NCBI RefSeq assembly: GCF_001294535.1
Contig: NZ_LGIC01000090.1
Span: 124,001-188,000, forward strand
DNA: 64,000 bases
Direction of reading: 5' to 3'
Source: Cypionkella psychrotolerans
GTDB lineage: Bacteria > Pseudomonadota > Alphaproteobacteria > Rhodobacterales > Rhodobacteraceae
Within the stretch, counting starts at the first letter, position 1. The number at the start of each line of letters is the position of its first letter. The notes under the pieces were generated by a model. That model searched no databases, was not told the origin of the DNA, and worked only from the letters and a program-made list of their open reading frames with translations. Shown here piece by piece: positions 5,120 through 34,847 of this stretch. The position numbers and the translations under genes were made by a program.

Positions 5120-5244
5120 CCAACCCTCCCGTTTGCGCACACCAAAGCATGACCTGCCCCGGCCTCAAAGCCCGATCGTAAAATGCCCCCCGTCAGCCCC
5201 GCAAGATCGCTTGCCCGATGCCGCAACCCGGCTATTCTGCCCCT

Positions 5245-7194
5245 ATGTTGCAGATATTTCGATCAACCCTTTGCAAGATTGTGCAAGCTGGCCTGCTGGC
5301 CGCCCTGCCGCTCCCGGCCCACGCTGAATTGCGCGCGGTTTTGGTTGGGGTCAGCGATTATCTGACCTTAGATGCAGACCTGAAAGGCCCAGTTAACGAT
5401 GTCCGCCTGATGGCCGAGGTGCTGATCGCGCGTGGCATCCCGGCACCCGAAATCGCGGTGCTCACCTCTGACCCCACCGACCTGCCCGCAGGCGTCACCA
5501 CCGCGCCGACCACCAAAGCCGCCATCCTGACCGCCCTCACCAATGTCTCAACCCGCGCCCAACCCGGCGATACCGTGGTGTTCTATTTCTCTGGCCACGG
5601 CGCACAGGCCCCCGACCAAAGCGGCGATGAGGGCGGCGGCTATGATGAGATTTTCCTGCCCGCCGATGCCGCCGGCTGGAAGGGCGATGTCGGCACAGTT
5701 GAAAACGCCCTAACAGATGACGAATTGCAGGCTTGGGCGCAGCCTTTGCTGTCGCGCGGCATCAAACTGATCGGCCTGATCGACGCCTGCCATGCCGACA
5801 CCGGATTTCGCAGCCTGCCGAACAGTGCAGCCGTGGCCCGAGGCCTTAGCCCCGCTGATCTCAATATCCCCGACAACGCCGCCTCCGCCCCCAGCGTCCC
5901 CGCGCCGCCCCTCAGTGGCGATTTCGCCTTCCTCTACTCCTCACAATCCGACCAACGCTCGTTTGAATACCCCGTCGGAGACAGCGACCTCTGGCAAGGG
6001 GCCTTCACCCGCCAACTCGCCGAAGTCCTGCGCAGCAGCCCAAAAGCCCCGTGGGCGCAGATTCTGGCCGCCGCAGCCGCCACAATGCAACAAGGCACAA
6101 GCGCACAAATGCCCGATGGCGAAGGCCCGATGCTGAATGAAAACCTGTTCGGCACCCCTGCCCCGCAACGCTTTCTCGTCCAAAACGGCACTCTCAAAGC
6201 AGGCCTGCTGCAAGGCTTGAACCCCGGCGACGAACTCTCGCTCTATACCGCCCCCGCAGGCGGCACGGCGCTGATGCACGTGACCCTGACCAAAGTAATG
6301 GCCCGCAGCAGCACCCTGCCCCAAGGCGCACCGGCCGCCGCTTGGGCCGAACTGGACCAACCCGCAACCCCGCCCCCCTTGCGCCTCGCCGCCGCCCAGC
6401 TTGCCAACCCGAACGAAGCCTTTGACTACACCCCATGGATCGCCGCCCTAGCCCCCTACGCAACCCAAACCACCCCCGACCTTACCCCAATCCTGACCGA
6501 TGGCGACATCGCCCTCGCAGGCCCCGACGGTCAGCTTGACCCCAAAGGCCCCGGCTCCACCCCCCACATCACCCTGCAAGATGGTGACACCCCCGCCCTC
6601 GCCGTTGCGCGCACCTTGGCGCAGGCCGCGCACAATGTCCGCCTGCGTCGCTTGCTCGCCTCGGTAGCAGGGCGCGGCCTCACAGCAGAGGCCCCGCTCA
6701 AACTGGACTGGCAACGCAAGCCTGCGCCCGGTTGCGCCACGCCAGGCCCTGCCGAGCCCTTCGATCCGGCCAAAGCCGTGCAGCCCTGCGATCAGCTTTG
6801 GCTGGGCTTCCAGAACCAATTCGGTCGTGATCTCGATATCTCGATCCTCTATTTCAACACCGATTTCAGCATCACGCCGCTTTGGCCCGCCGAAGGCCTC
6901 TCCAACCGCCTTGCCGCCGGAGAAAGCGGCAAAGCGGGGTTCCAGATCGACGCAAACTCACCCCCTGTCGATGAAGACATCCTCGTGCTCGCAGTTCCCG
7001 TTGAACCGGGTGCTGCGCGGGTTGATCTGACCACCCTCGCCGACCCTGCAGCGACGCGCGGCGGCGGGGATTGGCTCTCCAACCGCCTTAACCCCGACCC
7101 CACCGCCACCCGCAGCTTTTCCGCCAAACCCGCGCCATTGCTGATGATTCGCCAAGCTATGCGGATCCGCCCCGCGCCACAGGGAGATGAATGA
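5245..7194 (+). CDS. Secreted caspase-like protease (bacterial metacaspase/orthocaspase)
   Basis: Exported C14-family cysteine protease. Residues 1-27 form a signal peptide ending PAHA, after which the p20-like fold starts at once (RAVLVGVSDY). The catalytic dyad is present: His118 in YFSGHGAQ and Cys182 in LIDACHAD. The Asp two residues before the Cys is typical of metacaspases, which cut after Arg or Lys. About 400 residues follow, ending in a beta-rich domain (LWLGFQNQFGRDLDISILYF) whose motif order recurs in the second caspase at 14726. The stop overlaps the ATG of the trypsin-like gene (ATGA), so the two are translationally coupled. An alternative start at 5218 would add nine residues ahead of the signal. 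Confidence 0.87.
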   Translation: MLQIFRSTLCKIVQAGLLAALPLPAHAELRAVLVGVSDYLTLDADLKGPVNDVRLMAEVLIARGIPAPEIAVLTSDPTDLPAGVTTAPTTKAAILTALTNVSTRAQPGDTVVFYFSGHGAQAPDQSGDEGGGYDEIFLPADAAGWKGDVGTVENALTDDELQAWAQPLLSRGIKLIGLIDACHADTGFRSLPNSAAVARGLSPADLNIPDNAASAPSVPAPPLSGDFAFLYSSQSDQRSFEYPVGDSDLWQGAFTRQLAEVLRSSPKAPWAQILAAAAATMQQGTSAQMPDGEGPMLNENLFGTPAPQRFLVQNGTLKAGLLQGLNPGDELSLYTAPAGGTALMHVTLTKVMARSSTLPQGAPAAAWAELDQPATPPPLRLAAAQLANPNEAFDYTPWIAALAPYATQTTPDLTPILTDGDIALAGPDGQLDPKGPGSTPHITLQDGDTPALAVARTLAQAAHNVRLRRLLASVAGRGLTAEAPLKLDWQRKPAPGCATPGPAEPFDPAKAVQPCDQLWLGFQNQFGRDLDISILYFNTDFSITPLWPAEGLSNRLAAGESGKAGFQIDANSPPVDEDILVLAVPVEPGAARVDLTTLADPAATRGGGDWLSNRLNPDPTATRSFSAKPAPLLMIRQAMRIRPAPQGDE

Positions 7195-8222
7195 TGAAAA
7201 CATCCATGCTGGCTTTGCTAGCCCTCACGACCCCCGCGCTGGCCGAGGTCAAACCTGCTTTCAAACAATCCTCACCCTCGGCCTTCGCTTGGGCAAAAGG
7301 CGGCGCCAAGGCGGCGCATGAAGCCAAAGCCGCGACAGGGGGCAAGGTTCTGGGCGGCAAGGTCTCGGCAGACGGGGCGTGGCCGTGGCAGGTGGCGCTG
7401 CTGGTCGGCGGAGCTCCCGTCGGGCCAGACGCGCAGTTTTGCGGTGGCAGCTTGATCATGGAGGAATGGGTGCTGACGGCAGCCCATTGCGTGCATATGC
7501 AGGACGCGCAGGGCAACTGGAGCGATCTCGACCCAAAGGATATCTCGGTGATGCTGGGCAGCAATATCATCGCGGCGGGCAAGGGTGAGGTGATCGCGGT
7601 GAAAGGGGTGTTTCGGCATCCCGATTATGTCGGCACCGGGTTTGACTTTGACATCGCGCTGCTGAAACTCGCCCGGGCGCCACGCTTGCCGCATCAGGTT
7701 ATTCAGGTGCCCGACGCCGCGTTTGGTGATGAATTGGATCAGCCGGGTGTGGTGACTGTGGTGACGGGCTGGGGCTTGGTGGAGGGCGGCGGTCACCCGG
7801 AAGCGCTACATGAGACCGAGATTCAGATGCTGGACCGGGGCCTTTGCAATCAATCCTTGATGGCCGCGCGGACGGAGGCGGCGGCGGAGGGGTTTGGCTT
7901 TGCGGCGGGGATTCTCAGTTTGCGCGATGAGGATGCCTATCAGATCTGGGATGAACTGGTTGGAAAAGCCCCGCCGCCGATGAGTGAGAATATGCTGTGC
8001 TCGGGCACGTTCGAGGGCGGCAAGACGGCCTGTTCGGGCGACAGTGGCGGGCCTTTGGTGGTGCCGCTGGAGGATGGAACGTATATTCAGGCCGGGATTG
8101 TGAGTTGGGGGCTGACCGCGAAAACGGGCGAGGGCTGCGAGGAGAAGGCGCTGTTTTCGGCCTATACGAAGACTGCGAAATTTGTGCCTTGGCTGGATCA
8201 GGTGATCAGCGAAAATCCGTGA
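7194..8222 (+). CDS. Secreted trypsin-like (S1) serine protease zymogen
   Basis: Chymotrypsin-fold protease with a signal peptide (residues 1-17), then a short basic propeptide. The activation site is Lys51|Val52-Leu-Gly-Gly, matching the usual R/K|IVGG. The triad is His98 (TAAHC), Asp153 (FDFDIALL) and Ser284 (GDSGGP); the Asp before Ser284 can bind the new N-terminus. The position equal to trypsin Asp189 is Thr278, so cleavage after Arg/Lys is not expected. Between Asp and Ser the chain is about 35 residues longer than trypsin. An ATG at 7191 also exists, but AGGGAG fits the 7194 start better. Coupled to the upstream caspase. Confidence 0.92.
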   Translation: MKTSMLALLALTTPALAEVKPAFKQSSPSAFAWAKGGAKAAHEAKAATGGKVLGGKVSADGAWPWQVALLVGGAPVGPDAQFCGGSLIMEEWVLTAAHCVHMQDAQGNWSDLDPKDISVMLGSNIIAAGKGEVIAVKGVFRHPDYVGTGFDFDIALLKLARAPRLPHQVIQVPDAAFGDELDQPGVVTVVTGWGLVEGGGHPEALHETEIQMLDRGLCNQSLMAARTEAAAEGFGFAAGILSLRDEDAYQIWDELVGKAPPPMSENMLCSGTFEGGKTACSGDSGGPLVVPLEDGTYIQAGIVSWGLTAKTGEGCEEKALFSAYTKTAKFVPWLDQVISENP

Positions 8223-8843: not shown

Positions 8844-10181
8844 CTACCCCATCAGTTTCGGCCACAACATTTCCACCGTCAGGCCGTTTTCCACTTCTGG
8901 CAAGGTCAGCTTCGCACCGTGCCTTGCGGCGATAGCGCGGACCAAGGCGAGGCCTAACCCGTGGCCTTTGATGCCGCGAACTTGGTCGCGAGGGGCGCGG
9001 GTGAAGCGCTCGAAGGCGGCGTCGCGCAGGTCGGGTGGCAAGCCGGGGCCTGTATCGGACAGGGTCAGGCGGTGATGCTCGGGGGTTTGGCAGAGGGTAA
9101 GGGTGAGAGTGTCGCCTGCGCTGCAATATTTGATGGCGTTGTCGATCAGGTTGGCGAGCATTTGGGCGATCAGGTTGCGGTCGCCGAGAATATGTAGGTC
9201 TGGGGTGGTTTGCAGGGTGCAGAGCAGGCCTTTGTCCTCAGCAAGAGGCTCGTACAGATCCCAGACTTCGGCGGCAACGGCGGAGAGATCAACCGGCAGC
9301 AGGCCGCCGCCGCTGCCTTGGTCTGCCTCGGCGCGGGAGATGTCCAGCAGCGAGTCGAAGACGCGGATGGCGTTGCGCATCTCGGCTTTCAGATCGGCGG
9401 CGAGGGTGGGTTGGCCTTCGATCAGGGCGAGTTTTTGCATCATGCGATTGAGCGGGGTGCGCAGCTCGTGCGCGATGGTGTCAGACAAGCGGTGCGTGGC
9501 GCGGTTGAGGTTTTCGATGCGGTCCAGCATGGCGTGGACATGGGTTTCCAACAGGCCAAATTCATCGAGACTGCGCGGACCGGGGAGGCGGGCGGTGAGA
9601 TCGCCGCTTGCCACCTGATCGGCGACGTTGTTGAGGCGGGTGATGCGGGTCATCACCGATTTGGCCGCTAAGGTGCCGATGAGCGCGCCTGCGGCGATCA
9701 GGACCAGACTGAGCGCGGCCATGCCTTTGCGCAAACTGGCGAGGGTAGATTCGACGGGCGCGAGCGAGCGGGCGACCAGCAGCGGGAAGCCTCCGGGCAA
9801 GGTGCGGGCAACGCCGAGCCATTCGGTGCCTTGGTGGGTGAAGCGTTGGGCTTGCGTGCTGGAAAAATTGGTGCCTTGCGGTTGGATTTCAGCGGGCCAG
9901 TCGGCCTCAGCCCCCGCAAGGCGGATGTGATTGCGGTCTTGCAGCAGCAGCAGTTCACTGCCGGTGTTGGCGCGGTCGGTGATGGCTTGGCGCAGCGCGA
10001 TGATGCGGCGTTGTTGGTAAAGTGCAGAATAGCCTGCAAGATCGGCGCTAAGCGCGGCTTTTGTGGCGTCGGTCAGTCGGGATTCTACAAGACGGTATTG
10101 CAGGGCCATCGCCAGCAGCGACAGCAGGCTGATGGCGAGAGCCATGGTGGCGGCGAGTTTCAGGGTGGAGCGGGCGATCAT
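8844..10181 (-). CDS. Sensor histidine kinase
   Basis: Membrane-bound kinase of 445 residues. It has an N-terminal transmembrane helix (about 9-28), a periplasmic sensor region (about 30-150), a second helix (about 153-172), a HAMP domain (RITRLNNVADQVASGDL), the phosphoacceptor His238 in TIAHELRTP, then the ATPase domain with NLIDNAIKY (N box) and DTGPGL (G1). All catalytic boxes are present. Its start overlaps the response-regulator stop (ATGA), so the two are co-translated. The periplasmic domain is not recognised, so the signal is unknown; the HtrA-like gene upstream in the operon suggests envelope stress. Confidence 0.93.
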   Translation of the reverse strand: MIARSTLKLAATMALAISLLSLLAMALQYRLVESRLTDATKAALSADLAGYSALYQQRRIIALRQAITDRANTGSELLLLQDRNHIRLAGAEADWPAEIQPQGTNFSSTQAQRFTHQGTEWLGVARTLPGGFPLLVARSLAPVESTLASLRKGMAALSLVLIAAGALIGTLAAKSVMTRITRLNNVADQVASGDLTARLPGPRSLDEFGLLETHVHAMLDRIENLNRATHRLSDTIAHELRTPLNRMMQKLALIEGQPTLAADLKAEMRNAIRVFDSLLDISRAEADQGSGGGLLPVDLSAVAAEVWDLYEPLAEDKGLLCTLQTTPDLHILGDRNLIAQMLANLIDNAIKYCSAGDTLTLTLCQTPEHHRLTLSDTGPGLPPDLRDAAFERFTRAPRDQVRGIKGHGLGLALVRAIAARHGAKLTLPEVENGLTVEMLWPKLMG

Positions 10182-10873
10182 GGCGGTGGCAGTGGCGCGA
10201 AGATATAGCCTTCGCCGCGGGCAGTCTGGATGGCTTGCGATCCGGTTTCCTCAAGCTTGCGGCGCAGGCGGCCGACATGGACATCGACGACATTGGTGCC
10301 GGGGTCGAAATGCAGGTGCCAGACGTTCTCCAGCAGTTGCATCCGGGTGACGATCTGGCCAGCATTCTGGGCGAAATAGGTGATCAGTTCAAATTCTTTA
10401 GGTGAAACAGCGACATGGGCGCGGTTGATGTGGACGGTGCGGGCTTTCATGCGGATTTCCAGCGCGCCGAACACCAGCAGATCATTGTCCTGTCCCTGCA
10501 TGGTGGCGCGGCGTAGCAGGGCGCGCAGGCGGGCGCGGAGTTCTTCGGGCTCGAAGGGTTTAGGGAGATAATCGTCGGCACCCTTCTCTAGCCCCTCAAC
10601 CCGGTTGGCGGCGCGACCCAAAGCGGAAAGCACGAGGATCATGGCTCGCGCGCCGTGGCTGCGCATTTTGGCGATGGCTTCGACGCCGTCGCCACCGGGC
10701 AGCATCCGGTCCAGCACGATGACGCGGAAGTCTTGGGCGGAGAGGGCGATGCCTTCGGGCAGAGTGGGGACGATGGTGGCGGTGCAGCCGAGGGCGCGCA
10801 CTTCGCAGGCGATGGCTGCGGCAGTCTCAGGGTCATCCTCGATGATCAGGATACTGTCAGTTTGAGCGGGCAT
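10178..10873 (-). CDS. OmpR-family response regulator
   Basis: Two-domain regulator: receiver (residues 1-120) with phosphoacceptor Asp55 in VIVLDRMLPGGDG, acidic pair in IIEDDPE and Lys in LPKPF, then a winged-helix DNA-binding domain ending GEGYIFAPL. I start at the ATG of MPAQTDSILI because GAAGGAA lies just upstream; a longer frame starting at 10930 runs into the HtrA-like gene's end. Partner of the kinase that follows, and likely to control the operon or the neighbouring proteases (inference). Confidence 0.94.
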   Translation of the reverse strand: MPAQTDSILIIEDDPETAAAIACEVRALGCTATIVPTLPEGIALSAQDFRVIVLDRMLPGGDGVEAIAKMRSHGARAMILVLSALGRAANRVEGLEKGADDYLPKPFEPEELRARLRALLRRATMQGQDNDLLVFGALEIRMKARTVHINRAHVAVSPKEFELITYFAQNAGQIVTRMQLLENVWHLHFDPGTNVVDVHVGRLRRKLEETGSQAIQTARGEGYIFAPLPPP

Positions 10874-10898
10874 TGCGGTTCCTTCGCTTTGGCAGATG

Positions 10899-12179
10899 TC
10901 AGAACACCACCACGTCGCGGTCAAGCACATTCGCTCCGCCGACCGGGTGAAGTGTCTTGCCCGTGGCCCAAGGGTCGATGAAGACGTGGCGGGTGCCGGT
11001 GGGGCTTTGGATGAGCAGGAGGACGGGATGGGTGAAGCTTTGGGCGCGTTGGGTGGCGGCGGGCTTGCCGTCGATTTGCAGAATGATTTCGGTGGGGGTT
11101 AGCCCTGCATTGAGGGCGGGGGAGTTCGGTGTGATGGCGGTGATTTGGGTGTCGCTGAGGGTGAGCCCAAGGTCTTGCAAGGTATATGCGGCGCGACGTT
11201 TGGGGGCTTTGAGCTCGCGCAGGGTGAGGGGCGAGGCTTCTGCGGTCAACTCGGCCATCAGGATCAGCACGGTTCCGGCGCGCAAGACGGTGAGGTCGAG
11301 GCGGTTTTGGCTTTGGGCGGATTCAACGGCGAAGGCGAGGTCGCCGGGGGTGGTGAGGGCGGCGGAGTTGACGGCGAGGATGACATCGCCGGGGACGAGG
11401 CCTGCTTGTTCGGCAAGGCTGGCGGGGGCGACGGCATCGACCAGCAAGCCCGTGGCGGCGATGTTCAGCGCCTCGGCCAGTTGGCGGCTGACCGGGCGGG
11501 CGGTGAGGCCGAGTTTTGGGATCGGCGGTAGGGACTCTGTGATCAGGCCTTGCACGATGCGAGTGAGGTCGGCGCTGGGGATGGCGTAGGCAATGCCGAT
11601 GAACATCCGGCTGCCATCGGCGATTTGGGCGTTCATGCCGACCAGTGCGCCGGTGCTGTCGATCAGCGGGCCGCCGGAGGAGCCGGGGTTGAGGGCGGCG
11701 TCGTGCTGGATCATGCGGATCGGGGTGGCGGGATCGGTTTGACGATCGAGGGCCGAGATACGGCCTGAGGTGACGGTGAATTCCACGTCAAGCGGGGCGC
11801 CGAGGGCCCAGACTTCGGCACCGAGTTGCGGTTGGGTGGCTGAGGGGATCAGGCCGGCCTGCCCCGGCTTTACCGCAATCACCGCCACGTCGCGGCTGCG
11901 GTCAGTGGCGATGACTTGGCCGATTTGTTCGTGACCTGCGGCATCGGTGAGGCGGACTTCGCTGGCATTACCTACAACATGGGCGTTGCTGACGGCGACC
12001 GCGCCATCGCCCCAAAGGAAGGCCGAGCCGAGGAAGCGGTCTTCGGCATCAGCGCTATGGACGGTGAACACTTTGGCCATCGCGGTTACCAGCATGGGGG
12101 CGTCGGCGGCTTGGGTCGGGGTGGTGAGCAGGAGGACGGCGAAGATAGCGCGGCGCAGGGTGGGGAGGGAAACGGGCAT
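10899..12179 (-). CDS. Periplasmic HtrA/DegP-like serine protease with two PDZ regions
   Basis: Trypsin-fold protease with a signal peptide (RRAIFAVLLLTTPTQA). The triad is visible as SNAHVVG (His), RDVAVIAV (Asp) and LNPGSSGGP (Ser). A full PDZ domain follows (TGLLVDAVAPASLAEQAGL, GDVILAVN), then a shorter, weaker one (ITAITPNSPALNAGL, EIILQIDG). DegP-type proteins degrade or refold damaged envelope proteins. The start is the ATG of MPVSLPTLRR; 25 upstream codons in frame look non-coding. It is the first gene of an operon with the response regulator and kinase, an arrangement that suggests a stress-response circuit. Confidence 0.9.
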   Translation of the reverse strand: MPVSLPTLRRAIFAVLLLTTPTQAADAPMLVTAMAKVFTVHSADAEDRFLGSAFLWGDGAVAVSNAHVVGNASEVRLTDAAGHEQIGQVIATDRSRDVAVIAVKPGQAGLIPSATQPQLGAEVWALGAPLDVEFTVTSGRISALDRQTDPATPIRMIQHDAALNPGSSGGPLIDSTGALVGMNAQIADGSRMFIGIAYAIPSADLTRIVQGLITESLPPIPKLGLTARPVSRQLAEALNIAATGLLVDAVAPASLAEQAGLVPGDVILAVNSAALTTPGDLAFAVESAQSQNRLDLTVLRAGTVLILMAELTAEASPLTLRELKAPKRRAAYTLQDLGLTLSDTQITAITPNSPALNAGLTPTEIILQIDGKPAATQRAQSFTHPVLLLIQSPTGTRHVFIDPWATGKTLHPVGGANVLDRDVVVF

Positions 12180-12270
12180 GGATATCCTCGGGTTAAGTCT
12201 TGGCGGTGAGCGTAGCGCGAGTGGGTTTGCGTTGCCCGTGACAAAGGCTGTCATTGGGCGACGGGCGATG

Positions 12271-14012: not shown

Positions 14013-14133
14013 GCCCTATCTTTAAGCGCGAGACTTTGAGCGCGTGACAAATGTCGTCACCGCGATTTGGCAACTTTACAGGACCAGCGCCGCGCCGCAT
14101 CTTTGGCGTAAGATTTTAACCCGAGGCTTTGAC

Positions 14134-14725: not shown

Positions 14726-16789
14726 ATGACATTGCAAGAGAAACTGCGCGCGGGAATTATGGGGATCGGCTTGGCGCTGATGGCTGCGCCCGGCTTCGCG
14801 CGCGAGAATTACGCACTGCTAATCGGGGCGGCGGAGTATAAGAACCTTGATCCTAAATACTGGCTGAAGGGGCCCGCCAATGATGTGCGGCTGGTGCAGA
14901 CCTATCTCACCATGCAAAGCCCGGTGAAATTCACGCCGCAGGATGTGATTGTGCTGGCCGATGGGGTGGAGGGCGCGCAGGCTCCGACACTGGCCGCGAT
15001 CCGGGTGGCGGTGGCGGATCTGACGGCGCGGGTGCGGCCGGGGGATTTCGTCTATCTGCATTTCTCGGGCCATGGCTCGCAATCGCCGGCGCTGAACCCG
15101 GAAACCGAGTTGGATGGGCTGGATGAGACCTTCATGCCCTCGGACATCGGGCCTTGGGATGATGCGGTTGGGCATGTGCAGAACGCGCTTGTTGATGATG
15201 AGATCGGCGCAATGATCGACGGGTTGCGCGCCAAAGGGGCGGATGTTTGGGCGGTGTTTGACAGCTGCCACTCTGGCACGGTGACGCGGGGGGTGGAGGA
15301 AGATGATGTGCGGTTGCGGGAATTGCCGCCTGAAGCGTTGGGGATTCCGACGGAGTTGATGGAGATTGCAACGCGGGCTTTGCCTGCGGCTGAAGCGCCG
15401 TTTGATGAGACATCAAAACCCGGCATGGGCAGCTTCGTGGGGTTTTTTGCGGCGCAAACCAACGAGGTGACTCCCGAGAAGAACCTGCCAAAAGGCAAAC
15501 CGGGGCGGGTGCCGCAAGGGGTGTTCACTTATACTCTGTTCGAGGTGTTGGCGCAGAATCCCGGTGCCAGCTATGGTCAGATTGGGCAAGAGGTGCTGCG
15601 ATCTTATGCCACCAAGCGGTTGGCCGCGACGACTCCGCTGTTTGAGGGCGATCTGGACCGGGTGGCGTTTTCGGGGGGGGCGCAGGCGCGGGTTTCGCAA
15701 TGGACGGGGGCGGTTGAAGGGGCGGAGTTTTCCATTCCGGCGGGGTCTTTGCATGGGCTGGCCGTGGGCGCGGTTCTGGCGGTGATGGGATCGGCGACCG
15801 ATGAAGATGCGGCGGCTTTGGGGTTTGTGACGCTGACTTCGGTCGAGACGTTTTCGGCCAAGGGCAAGGCTTTGGCGGGGAATAAGCCCTTGCCTGCGGA
15901 GCTGCCTAAAGGCTTTCTGCTGCGAAAAATCGGCAGCGATGTGGACTTTACCCTGACGGTGTCTTTACCAAAAGTCGAGAAATCTCCAGTGGTTACTGCG
16001 CTTGATGCGGCGATGGAAGCGTTGAAGGCGGCGTCTGGCCCTCGCTTGGTTTATGTCGCAGCCGGAGAGGAAGCCGATCTGCGGCTCGCGGTGATCAAGA
16101 ACAGCCCGCGCCCGGATGCGATCTGGGTGCTGCCTGCCACCGGGTTGGTGGCGGATTTTGCGACCACGCCTTCGGTGTCGACCGCAGATAAGGATGCGGC
16201 AGAGTTGGGAGAGGTCTTGGCCGAGACGCTGACCACAATGGCCCGCGCGATCAATCTGCAAAAGCTGGGCGCTGCGGTGGGGTCAGGCAGTCTGAATGTT
16301 GATGTCGAACTGCTGACCGGCAAGGATAAAAACAGCCTGAAGACGGCAAAGGCAGCAGAGGTACCGCGCTTGGTGCCAAACGATCAGGTGCATATTCTGG
16401 CGCGCAACAATATGGATCAGCCTATTGATATTAATGTTCTTTATATCGCTGCGGACTACGCGATCAGCCATTGGTTTTCGGGTCGCTTACAGCCGGGCGA
16501 TGTGCTGAAGAAAGGGCTGTTCAAGATCGGCGCGGATGTTTTGGGCGATGAGCGGATGATCGTGGTGATGACCCCTGCCCTGCCACAATCGCCCGTGGAG
16601 GACCTGAGTTTCCTCGCGCAAGACGCGCTGGATACCACCCGCAGTCTTGGCGGCTCGACTTTGTCGGCGGCATTGTCCGAGGCTGGGTTCGGGCAGACCA
16701 CCCGGAGCGCGACGGCGTTGGAGGATGACACGGCAGGCCCCGCACCGGGGATGATCGAGTTGGAACTGCGCACCGGGTTGGCGGAGTAG
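14726..16789 (+). CDS. Second secreted caspase-like protease
   Basis: A 687-residue exported metacaspase-type protease with the same layout as the one at 5245. The signal region is residues 1-26 (ends PGFARENY), the p20 fold begins at about 28, His116 lies in HFSGHGSQ and Cys181 in VFDSCHSGT. The rest has a middle region and a C-terminal domain (DQVHILARNNMDQPIDINVL) whose motif order matches the first caspase. The two are diverged paralogues rather than a recent duplication. Coupled to the small secreted protein just upstream. Substrates unknown; P1 Arg/Lys is expected from the family. Confidence 0.87.
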   Translation: MTLQEKLRAGIMGIGLALMAAPGFARENYALLIGAAEYKNLDPKYWLKGPANDVRLVQTYLTMQSPVKFTPQDVIVLADGVEGAQAPTLAAIRVAVADLTARVRPGDFVYLHFSGHGSQSPALNPETELDGLDETFMPSDIGPWDDAVGHVQNALVDDEIGAMIDGLRAKGADVWAVFDSCHSGTVTRGVEEDDVRLRELPPEALGIPTELMEIATRALPAAEAPFDETSKPGMGSFVGFFAAQTNEVTPEKNLPKGKPGRVPQGVFTYTLFEVLAQNPGASYGQIGQEVLRSYATKRLAATTPLFEGDLDRVAFSGGAQARVSQWTGAVEGAEFSIPAGSLHGLAVGAVLAVMGSATDEDAAALGFVTLTSVETFSAKGKALAGNKPLPAELPKGFLLRKIGSDVDFTLTVSLPKVEKSPVVTALDAAMEALKAASGPRLVYVAAGEEADLRLAVIKNSPRPDAIWVLPATGLVADFATTPSVSTADKDAAELGEVLAETLTTMARAINLQKLGAAVGSGSLNVDVELLTGKDKNSLKTAKAAEVPRLVPNDQVHILARNNMDQPIDINVLYIAADYAISHWFSGRLQPGDVLKKGLFKIGADVLGDERMIVVMTPALPQSPVEDLSFLAQDALDTTRSLGGSTLSAALSEAGFGQTTRSATALEDDTAGPAPGMIELELRTGLAE

Positions 16790-33972: not shown

Positions 33973-34847
33973 TTCTCGCCCCGCGCCCGCAAAAGTTGAT
34001 ATTGCAGCACCGACAGCACCACGATCAGCAGGAACAGGATCAGCGCAATCGTCGCACCATAGCCGCCCTGATTTTTCTGGAAAGCCGAGCCGTAGATCAG
34101 TTGCACCAGCACCATGGTGCGATCTGACTGCCCGCCTTGGGTGAACAGATAGACCTAATCGAAAATCTTCAACTGCATGATCAACTGAATGGTAGCCACC
34201 AGCACGGTGATCGGCCAGATCAGCGGCCAAGTGATGCGGCGAAACATCTGCCAGCGCGTCGCGCCATCCAAGCGGGCCGCCTCATAACTCTCGGACGAGA
34301 TATTACGCAGCCCGGCGATGAACAGCAGGATGTTAAAGCCGATCAGCCACCACACCGTGATCCACGCTACCGTTGGCATGAACAAGGAAACCGTGCGAAA
34401 GATCGCCACATTGCCGCCAACGATCATCGCAATCGGGTATTGCGCGATGCCAAACTGGCTGTCGAGCATCCAGTTCCATGTGCGATAGACCACCGAAACC
34501 GGCAGGATATAGGGGATGAAAAAGCAGGCCAGCAGCACGCTTTGCAGCCAGCCTTTCAGCCGATTGACTCCCATCGCCACGAACAATCCGAGCAGCGTCG
34601 AAGGGATCACCGTCAGCGCCACGAAATAGAAGGTGTTGGTGACGGCATTGAAGAACAGCTTGTCCTTGAATAGGCGGGAGTAATTCTTCAGACCCACCCA
34701 CTCACCTTCTCCGATCAGCGTGGCCTTGGTGAAGGTCATCGCCACCATTTTCAGCGTCGGATAGACGAACAGCACCGCGTAAACGATCACAAACGGCACC
34801 AACAGCACAAAGGCCGTCATCACTTCCGAGCCACGATATTTCGACAT
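33969..34847 (-). pseudogene. Sugar ABC transporter permease (UgpA/MalF type) with in-frame TAG
   Basis: Homologue of MalF/UgpA-type permeases. The N-terminal 230 residues read normally, including the EAA loop SYEAARLDGATRWQMFRRIT. At 34155-34157 a TAG replaces what should be Gln in LKIFD-Q-VYLFTQGG; the frame then continues unbroken through the last two helices to TGA at 33969. The stop lies inside the membrane domain, so the product is probably inactive without suppression. A single CAG-to-TAG change explains it. Confidence 0.88.

Follow-up and report, generated by a model that had tools for sequence, protein, structure and literature searches.

The window analysed here, a 64,000-nt stretch of the Cypionkella psychrotolerans genome (contig NZ_LGIC01000090.1, positions 124,001 to 188,000), carries on one strand two adjacent genes for putatively exported proteases, a C14 caspase-family peptidase (CASP1) and a serine protease zymogen (S1). 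The same region encodes a two-component system, an HtrA-type protease and a second C14 peptidase, CASP2 (Table 1). The starts and order of the two genes were as given in a preliminary description made from the letters of this DNA alone.

Table 1. Features of the protease island in the window (↓, predicted cut)
Feature	Position (nt)	Strand	Description	Basis or remark
Operator remnant GTAAAATGCCCCCCGTCA	5176..5200	+	Degenerate	At the conserved location 5' of CASP1
CASP1	5245..7194	+	Predicted exported metacaspase-type C14 peptidase, 649 aa	Pfam Peptidase_C14, E = 5.8e-26
CASP1 catalytic residues	His118, 5596-5598; Cys182, 5788-5790	+	Predicted dyad	Dyad conservation
CASP1 Asp residues			Predicted pocket Asp52 and Asp180; Ca-site Asp134, Asp158 and Asp159	Conservation across orthologues
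S1	7194..8222	+	Predicted exported chymotrypsin-fold zymogen, 342 aa (343 aa from ATG 7191)	Pfam Trypsin, 1.1e-45
S1 residues			His98, Asp153, Ser284 (=195), Thr278 (=189), Asp283 (=194)	Numbered from ATG 7194
Activation cut, codons of Lys51↓Val52	7344..7349	+	Predicted	Basic P1 conservation; low-confidence model segment 47-53
Sensor histidine kinase	8844..10181	-	Linked two-component system	Pfam HisKA/HATPase
Response regulator	10178..10930	-	OmpR-type by sequence reading	Beside kinase in most loci
HtrA/DegP-type serine protease	10899..12254	-	With PDZ domains	Pfam and NCBIfam; conserved in island
Operator TGACAAAGGCTGTCA	12239..12253	+	Upstream of HtrA-type protease gene	Top PWM match of the window
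Operator TGACAAATGTCGTCA	14045..14059	+	Upstream of ORF14128-CASP2	Exact pattern match
ORF14128	14128..14721	+	Small predicted exported protein, conserved	No Pfam match; upstream of CASP2 in islands examined
CASP2	14726..16789	+	Second predicted exported C14 peptidase, 687 aa	Pfam C14, 1.2e-16; dyad intact

The ATG of CASP1 matches that of the sister species in alignment, and its His118/Cys182 dyad is invariant among orthologues, as is Asp180, the residue two positions before the catalytic Cys that the preliminary description had likened to metacaspases. A profile built from 22 orthologues gave significant PDB matches to metacaspases (Yca1, 3.2e-28; MCA2, 2.1e-21; AtMC4, 7.2e-22) and to bacterial GSU0716, and the closest folds to the predicted structure (pLDDT 81) were metacaspases and MALT1. 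In the alignment with Trypanosoma brucei MCA2, Asp52 and Asp180 correspond to the two Asp of its acidic S1 pocket, Asp95 and Asp211 (numbering derived by hand), and the calcium-site residues Asp173, Asp189 and Asp190 fall on invariant Asp of CASP1, so that three of the four calcium ligands are aligned and invariant, with the fourth outside the aligned part. Profile and predicted fold thus support placing CASP1 in the Arg/Lys-cutting metacaspase/paracaspase branch and not in the Asp-cutting branch. Its long C-terminal region has no Pfam family. Signal peptides with A-x-A cleavage sites were recognized by eye at the N-termini of both CASP1 and S1, which suggests a periplasmic location for the two proteins. 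PADLOC returned only a generic caspase model with a partial match to CASP1 (5e-19) and a weak match to S1, leaving an assignment to a known defence system unsupported. At one related locus (L033 4884-6980), a single in-frame TGA breaks the CASP1 reading frame and the downstream S1 is intact.

S1 has the GDSGGP motif, and its His98-Asp153-Ser284 triad and Asp283 are invariant in 18 relatives. The activation site fits the pattern K/R↓(I/V)xGG, of which the Gly-Gly is invariant in paired S1s, and Asp189, the mark of trypsin proper, is replaced by Thr278. With numbering from ATG 7194, the preliminary assignments of Lys51↓Val-Leu-Gly-Gly and of residues 189, 194 and 195 were correct. The ATGA overlap of the two genes that it described holds for ATG 7191, but the ATG 7194 of its own numbering overlaps by 1 nt, and conservation of the overlap was ruled out, as the S1 start of relatives ranges from -3 to roughly +78 nt relative to the stop codon of the caspase gene. 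Its basic propeptide is likewise found in the window but not in relatives, where P5/P6 are mostly acidic or Ala. The structure predicted from 18 sequences (pLDDT 79) has the S1A fold with thrombin and tryptase as nearest structures, and its low-confidence segments (47-53, 280-283 and 306-316) match, suggestively at most, regions that are flexible in known zymogens.

We then assessed how regularly the two genes occur together. In a protein search with S1 at E<=1e-10, matches came from 27 of the 296 family genomes, and each relative above ~34% identity with enough contig had a C14 gene immediately before it on the same strand. Conversely, S1 lay directly downstream in 15 of the 16 informative genes among 17 close CASP1 genes; the contig of one (G028) ends early, and another (G005, locus L169) has no S1. 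In a Trypsin-family search independent of the window sequence, 27 true S1A genes were obtained from 297 family genomes at a threshold of 118 bits or more. Twenty-two of these directly adjoin a C14 caspase, 19 of the CASP1 type and three of another type (L051, L054, L055), and five have no C14 neighbour; kinship of the genomes inflates such counts, which do not represent independent events. PF00089 counts at class level, which HtrA proteins dominate, served for the top scorers alone. Pairing in every relative with enough contig, save one caspase copy, is far beyond chance, and the conserved order of the two families, for which the preliminary description had proposed a search across genomes, was borne out. 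The two-gene unit is present in many marine and freshwater Rhodobacter-group bacteria, in genera including Tabrizicola, Rhodobacter, Fuscovulum, Pseudorhodobacter, Shimia, Szabonella, Paracoccus, Pseudogemmobacter, Oceaniglobus and Phaeobacter, with Shimia aestuarii, Pseudorhodobacter wandonensis and Tabrizicola thermarum as named strains. The CASP1 copy of L169 (9835-11811) lies within a full island, precedes genes for small membrane proteins and has neither S1 nor an upstream operator.

The S1s beside CASP1-type caspases in the 297 genomes carry Thr, Ser or Gly at position 189 in 19 of 19 cases and never Asp. In a set of 36 paired S1s lacking Asp189, which includes L089 although its contig stops before the caspase, residue 189 is Thr in 33, Ser in two and Gly in one, position 190 holds Ala, Ser or Met, and no acidic residue occurs at 189 or 190 or was seen at the 226 position. 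The P1 residue of the activation cut is Lys (15) or Arg (21) in all 36, and the main clade of 29 S1s has the consensus G-[GAS]-[KR]↓V-I-G-G with variable positions farther upstream. Lys and Arg interchange freely at P1 across the 36 sequences and most other propeptide positions drift. A non-basic P1 is more frequent in unpaired S1s (Glu in L181, Gln in L053 and L139, Ser in L185, Thr in L058). A trypsin pocket without an acid cannot readily cleave after Lys or Arg, so that an acid-less S1 with such a site implies an outside activator of basic specificity. The need for an outside activator, deduced in the preliminary description from the altered residue 189, would hold for partners of CASP1-type caspases but does not extend to several other C14-paired S1s that keep Asp189.

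Asp189 is retained in the C14-paired or fused S1s of L103, L109, L138, L051/L054/L055, L116, L121 and L186, where L103 is a paired S1 with Asp189 and L109 and L138 are likewise paired but in another gene arrangement. A simple rule that paired S1s lack Asp189 and unpaired S1s have it was accordingly broken by the L103, L109, L138 and L051/L054/L055 pairs. A tree of 69 S1 sequences, weak in its deep branches, showed at least five changes in total and split the non-Asp189 state between two distinct paired clades. Pairing itself thus does not demand lost self-activation, and the C14-S1 association extends beyond the loss of Asp189 and probably predates it.

The kinase was found in 17 of 17 CASP1 genomes versus none of 21 others tested (E<1e-70), the latter having been picked by genome label number together with genomes with other C14-S1 pairs. 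The usual gene order is HtrA, response regulator, kinase, patatin-like lipoprotein, CASP1 and S1, with ORF14128 and CASP2 divergent, and these pieces are rearranged in the window. In three genomes (G121, G034 and G443) the pair lies outside the island yet is still together, and in G121 and G034 CASP2 remains with the kinase. In most genomes with the island, the patatin-like phospholipase lipoprotein gene separates the kinase gene from CASP1 (L037 11203-12654 and equivalents). It was not found in a search of the window genome run without a positive control, and was dropped as an invariant member of the island.

A palindromic, operator-like motif derived solely from the DNA between HtrA and ORF14128 in 14 genomes (consensus ACATGACAAATCCCGTCATGA) also turned up upstream of CASP1, where the operator TGACAAATnCCGTCA in most loci precedes the mature N-terminus by ~110 nt. 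Of 29 loci, 19 had a match of at least 13 bits, a score reached by 2.7% of random stretches. The distance from these matches to the mature N-terminus is almost always 95-135 nt, and a TTGc/TAT promoter-like pair lies just 3' of them. Thirteen of the 14 loci scanned had no separate operator upstream of S1. The 5.08 Mb window genome has three exact matches to the pattern, two of them the island copies at 12239 and 14045. The CASP1 operator scores 13.2 bits in the sister species and is intact in most relatives, but reaches no significant score in the window. Judging from co-occurrence, the operator is probably the site of the linked response regulator. Pairing and co-regulation of CASP1 and S1 are well supported, and the regulon of HtrA, CASP2 and CASP1-S1, probably that of the two-component system, is real and largely undescribed; the shared operator, the two-component system, HtrA and CASP2 are additions to the preliminary description.

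Three further operator matches were observed. A one-mismatch copy (G000:C61:99563; L206 1500) stands at the start of a signal-peptide ORF running toward a C14 match 3 kb away (C61:95690), and this ORF is possibly a third caspase of the regulon. At L169 17391, a match of 29.8 bits stands in front of a gene resembling ORF14128, and the gene divergent from it encodes what by eye looks like a CHAT-type protein. A PWM match of 18.1 bits at window position 34802 lies inside sugar ABC-transporter genes and is not evidently a promoter.

We propose that CASP1 and S1 would form one transcription unit for two exported proteases, in which S1 would be synthesized as an inactive zymogen whose acid-less specificity pocket hinders removal of its own propeptide, while its activation site would still call for a protease cleaving after Lys or Arg. 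CASP1, as a metacaspase-type enzyme with the conserved calcium-site Asp, would be the likeliest candidate for the periplasmic cut at Lys51↓Val52, and the new Val52 N-terminus would then pair with Asp283 and switch S1 on. The linked kinase and regulator, which by the shared operator would also govern the HtrA-type protease and CASP2, may control the unit in what is likely an envelope-stress or envelope-remodelling response. Calcium, a misfolded envelope protein or the signal of the kinase may be the trigger. That CASP1 activates S1 by cleavage at the predicted site is, in our judgement, probable, with the direction of cleavage and the biological role inferred, and it is the simplest reading because a basic site has been kept on a poor self-cutter beside a protease of a basic-cutting family. 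We counted against it that the CASP1 operator of the window itself is degraded, that the CASP1 of L169 has no S1 and that the basic P1 would suit any trypsin-like activator. Since Asp189 S1s also stand beside related caspases (L103, L109 and L138), activation by the caspase is not a necessity at those loci. Far more tentatively, the island may encode an envelope protease cascade of Rhodobacter-group bacteria under two-component control, comprising HtrA, CASP2, CASP1 and S1 as terminal zymogen and joined in most genomes by the patatin-type phospholipase lipoprotein whose gene immediately precedes CASP1; this cascade would resemble animal clotting or complement cascades and end in envelope self-destruction or remodelling.

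It is unlikely, though worth weighing, that S1 is activated by some other protease specific for Lys/Arg, either CASP2 or an unlinked enzyme, while CASP1 and S1 are co-expressed partners that act side by side on envelope proteins. The pocket of CASP2 is the same as that of CASP1, its gene pair with ORF14128 has an operator, and HtrA, CASP2 and S1 are all proteases in one apparent regulon; however, the transcription unit of S1 includes CASP1 and not CASP2, and off the island it is CASP1 that stays with S1, CASP2 being seen with the kinase in two of these genomes. A reversed order, in which S1 processes CASP1 or the two activate each other, appears improbable. Metacaspases can undergo processing in the loop past the catalytic Cys, and the CASP1 model has low confidence in the loop at mature residues 158-168, but the conserved candidates there are Arg (mature Arg163 and Arg173), which fit self-cleavage and not an acid-less pocket. 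We consider it highly improbable that S1 slowly activates itself despite Thr189 and that its basic P1 is an inherited relic; related paired S1s with Asp189, as in L103, could self-activate, but a P1 that is always Lys or Arg, with free exchange of the two amid drifting neighbours, implies continuing selection. Adjacency that merely reflects co-regulation, with no proteolytic cascade, is scarcely credible, as the regulon evidence, strong and independent of any cleavage as it is, leaves C14-S1 pairs outside the regulon (L051/L054/L055) and fusions (L121, L186) unexplained.

CASP1 activation of S1, if true, would be a bacterial example of a periplasmic zymogen activated across protease families, from cysteine to serine. 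To our knowledge, hardly anything has been learned about what secreted caspase relatives do in bacteria, and CASP1 is such a relative with a physically linked and testable candidate substrate, a single predicted cut site and a candidate regulator and operator. In the type III CRISPR SAVED-CHAT/PCaspase system, a caspase-family enzyme cuts another protease zymogen in bacteria; that cascade differs in that both members are caspase-family and cytoplasmic and the trigger is CRISPR signalling. Eukaryotic metacaspases (Yca1, 4f6o; T. brucei MCA2, 4af8; Arabidopsis MC4, 6w8s; MC9, 9n3f) share with CASP1 the p20 fold, the His-Cys dyad, two pocket Asp and three Ca-site Asp, whereas CASP1 is an exported bacterial protein with ~20% identity to them and an unrelated C-terminal region of ~300 residues. 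Similarly, S1 has in common with eukaryotic trypsinogen-type zymogens (thrombin and tryptase folds) the Lys/Arg↓I/V-V-G-G activation site, Asp194 and three conserved cysteine pairs, but differs in Thr189, a ~40-residue helical insertion near the 170 loop and a conserved SPFAFA-type propeptide motif.

The nearest proven logic, by analogy, is that of the Canu caspase-nuclease and trypsin-nuclease pairs, in which a protease (the caspase-family CanA in one case) activates a neighbouring pro-nuclease (PMC12799240). There too a protease gene adjoins that of a pro-enzyme, with activation proven in Canu and inferred here, but Canu is antiphage with a nuclease target, whereas the target of CASP1 would be an exported serine protease. 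Caspases and trypsins have also been described as alternative modules of conflict systems (PMC7159879). The two-gene pair, of which the preliminary description knew no described bacterial example, and the island did not appear in the open-access literature, to which our search was confined; related arrangements were nevertheless known, namely S1-C14 fusions with a QC pseudo-dyad in alphaproteobacteria (Klemencic et al. 2019, PMC6426788) and caspase operons containing proteases in Rhizobium (PMC3501461). The QC pseudo-orthocaspases, with an N-terminal trypsin-like domain and DUF4384 (PMC6426788), link S1 and C14 in alphaproteobacteria as here, but are fused, with an inactive Gln-Cys dyad and Asp189, whereas CASP1-S1 comprises two genes with an active-type dyad and Thr189.

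A second, distinct exported C14-S1 pair was found in the same family of genomes (L051 8917-10368 and 7518-9059; L054 and L055 likewise), consisting of a caspase with a DACRNN motif and an S1 with a long C-terminal region and Asp189. S1-C14 fusions adjoining another C14 gene were observed at L121 (5779-8658), L186 (5854-8877) and L116 (5869-8469), the last, from Rhizobium lusitanum, being of the QC pseudo-orthocaspase type. In L121 the upstream C14 is without the dyad and the fused C14 has it, and in L116 the arrangement is the opposite.
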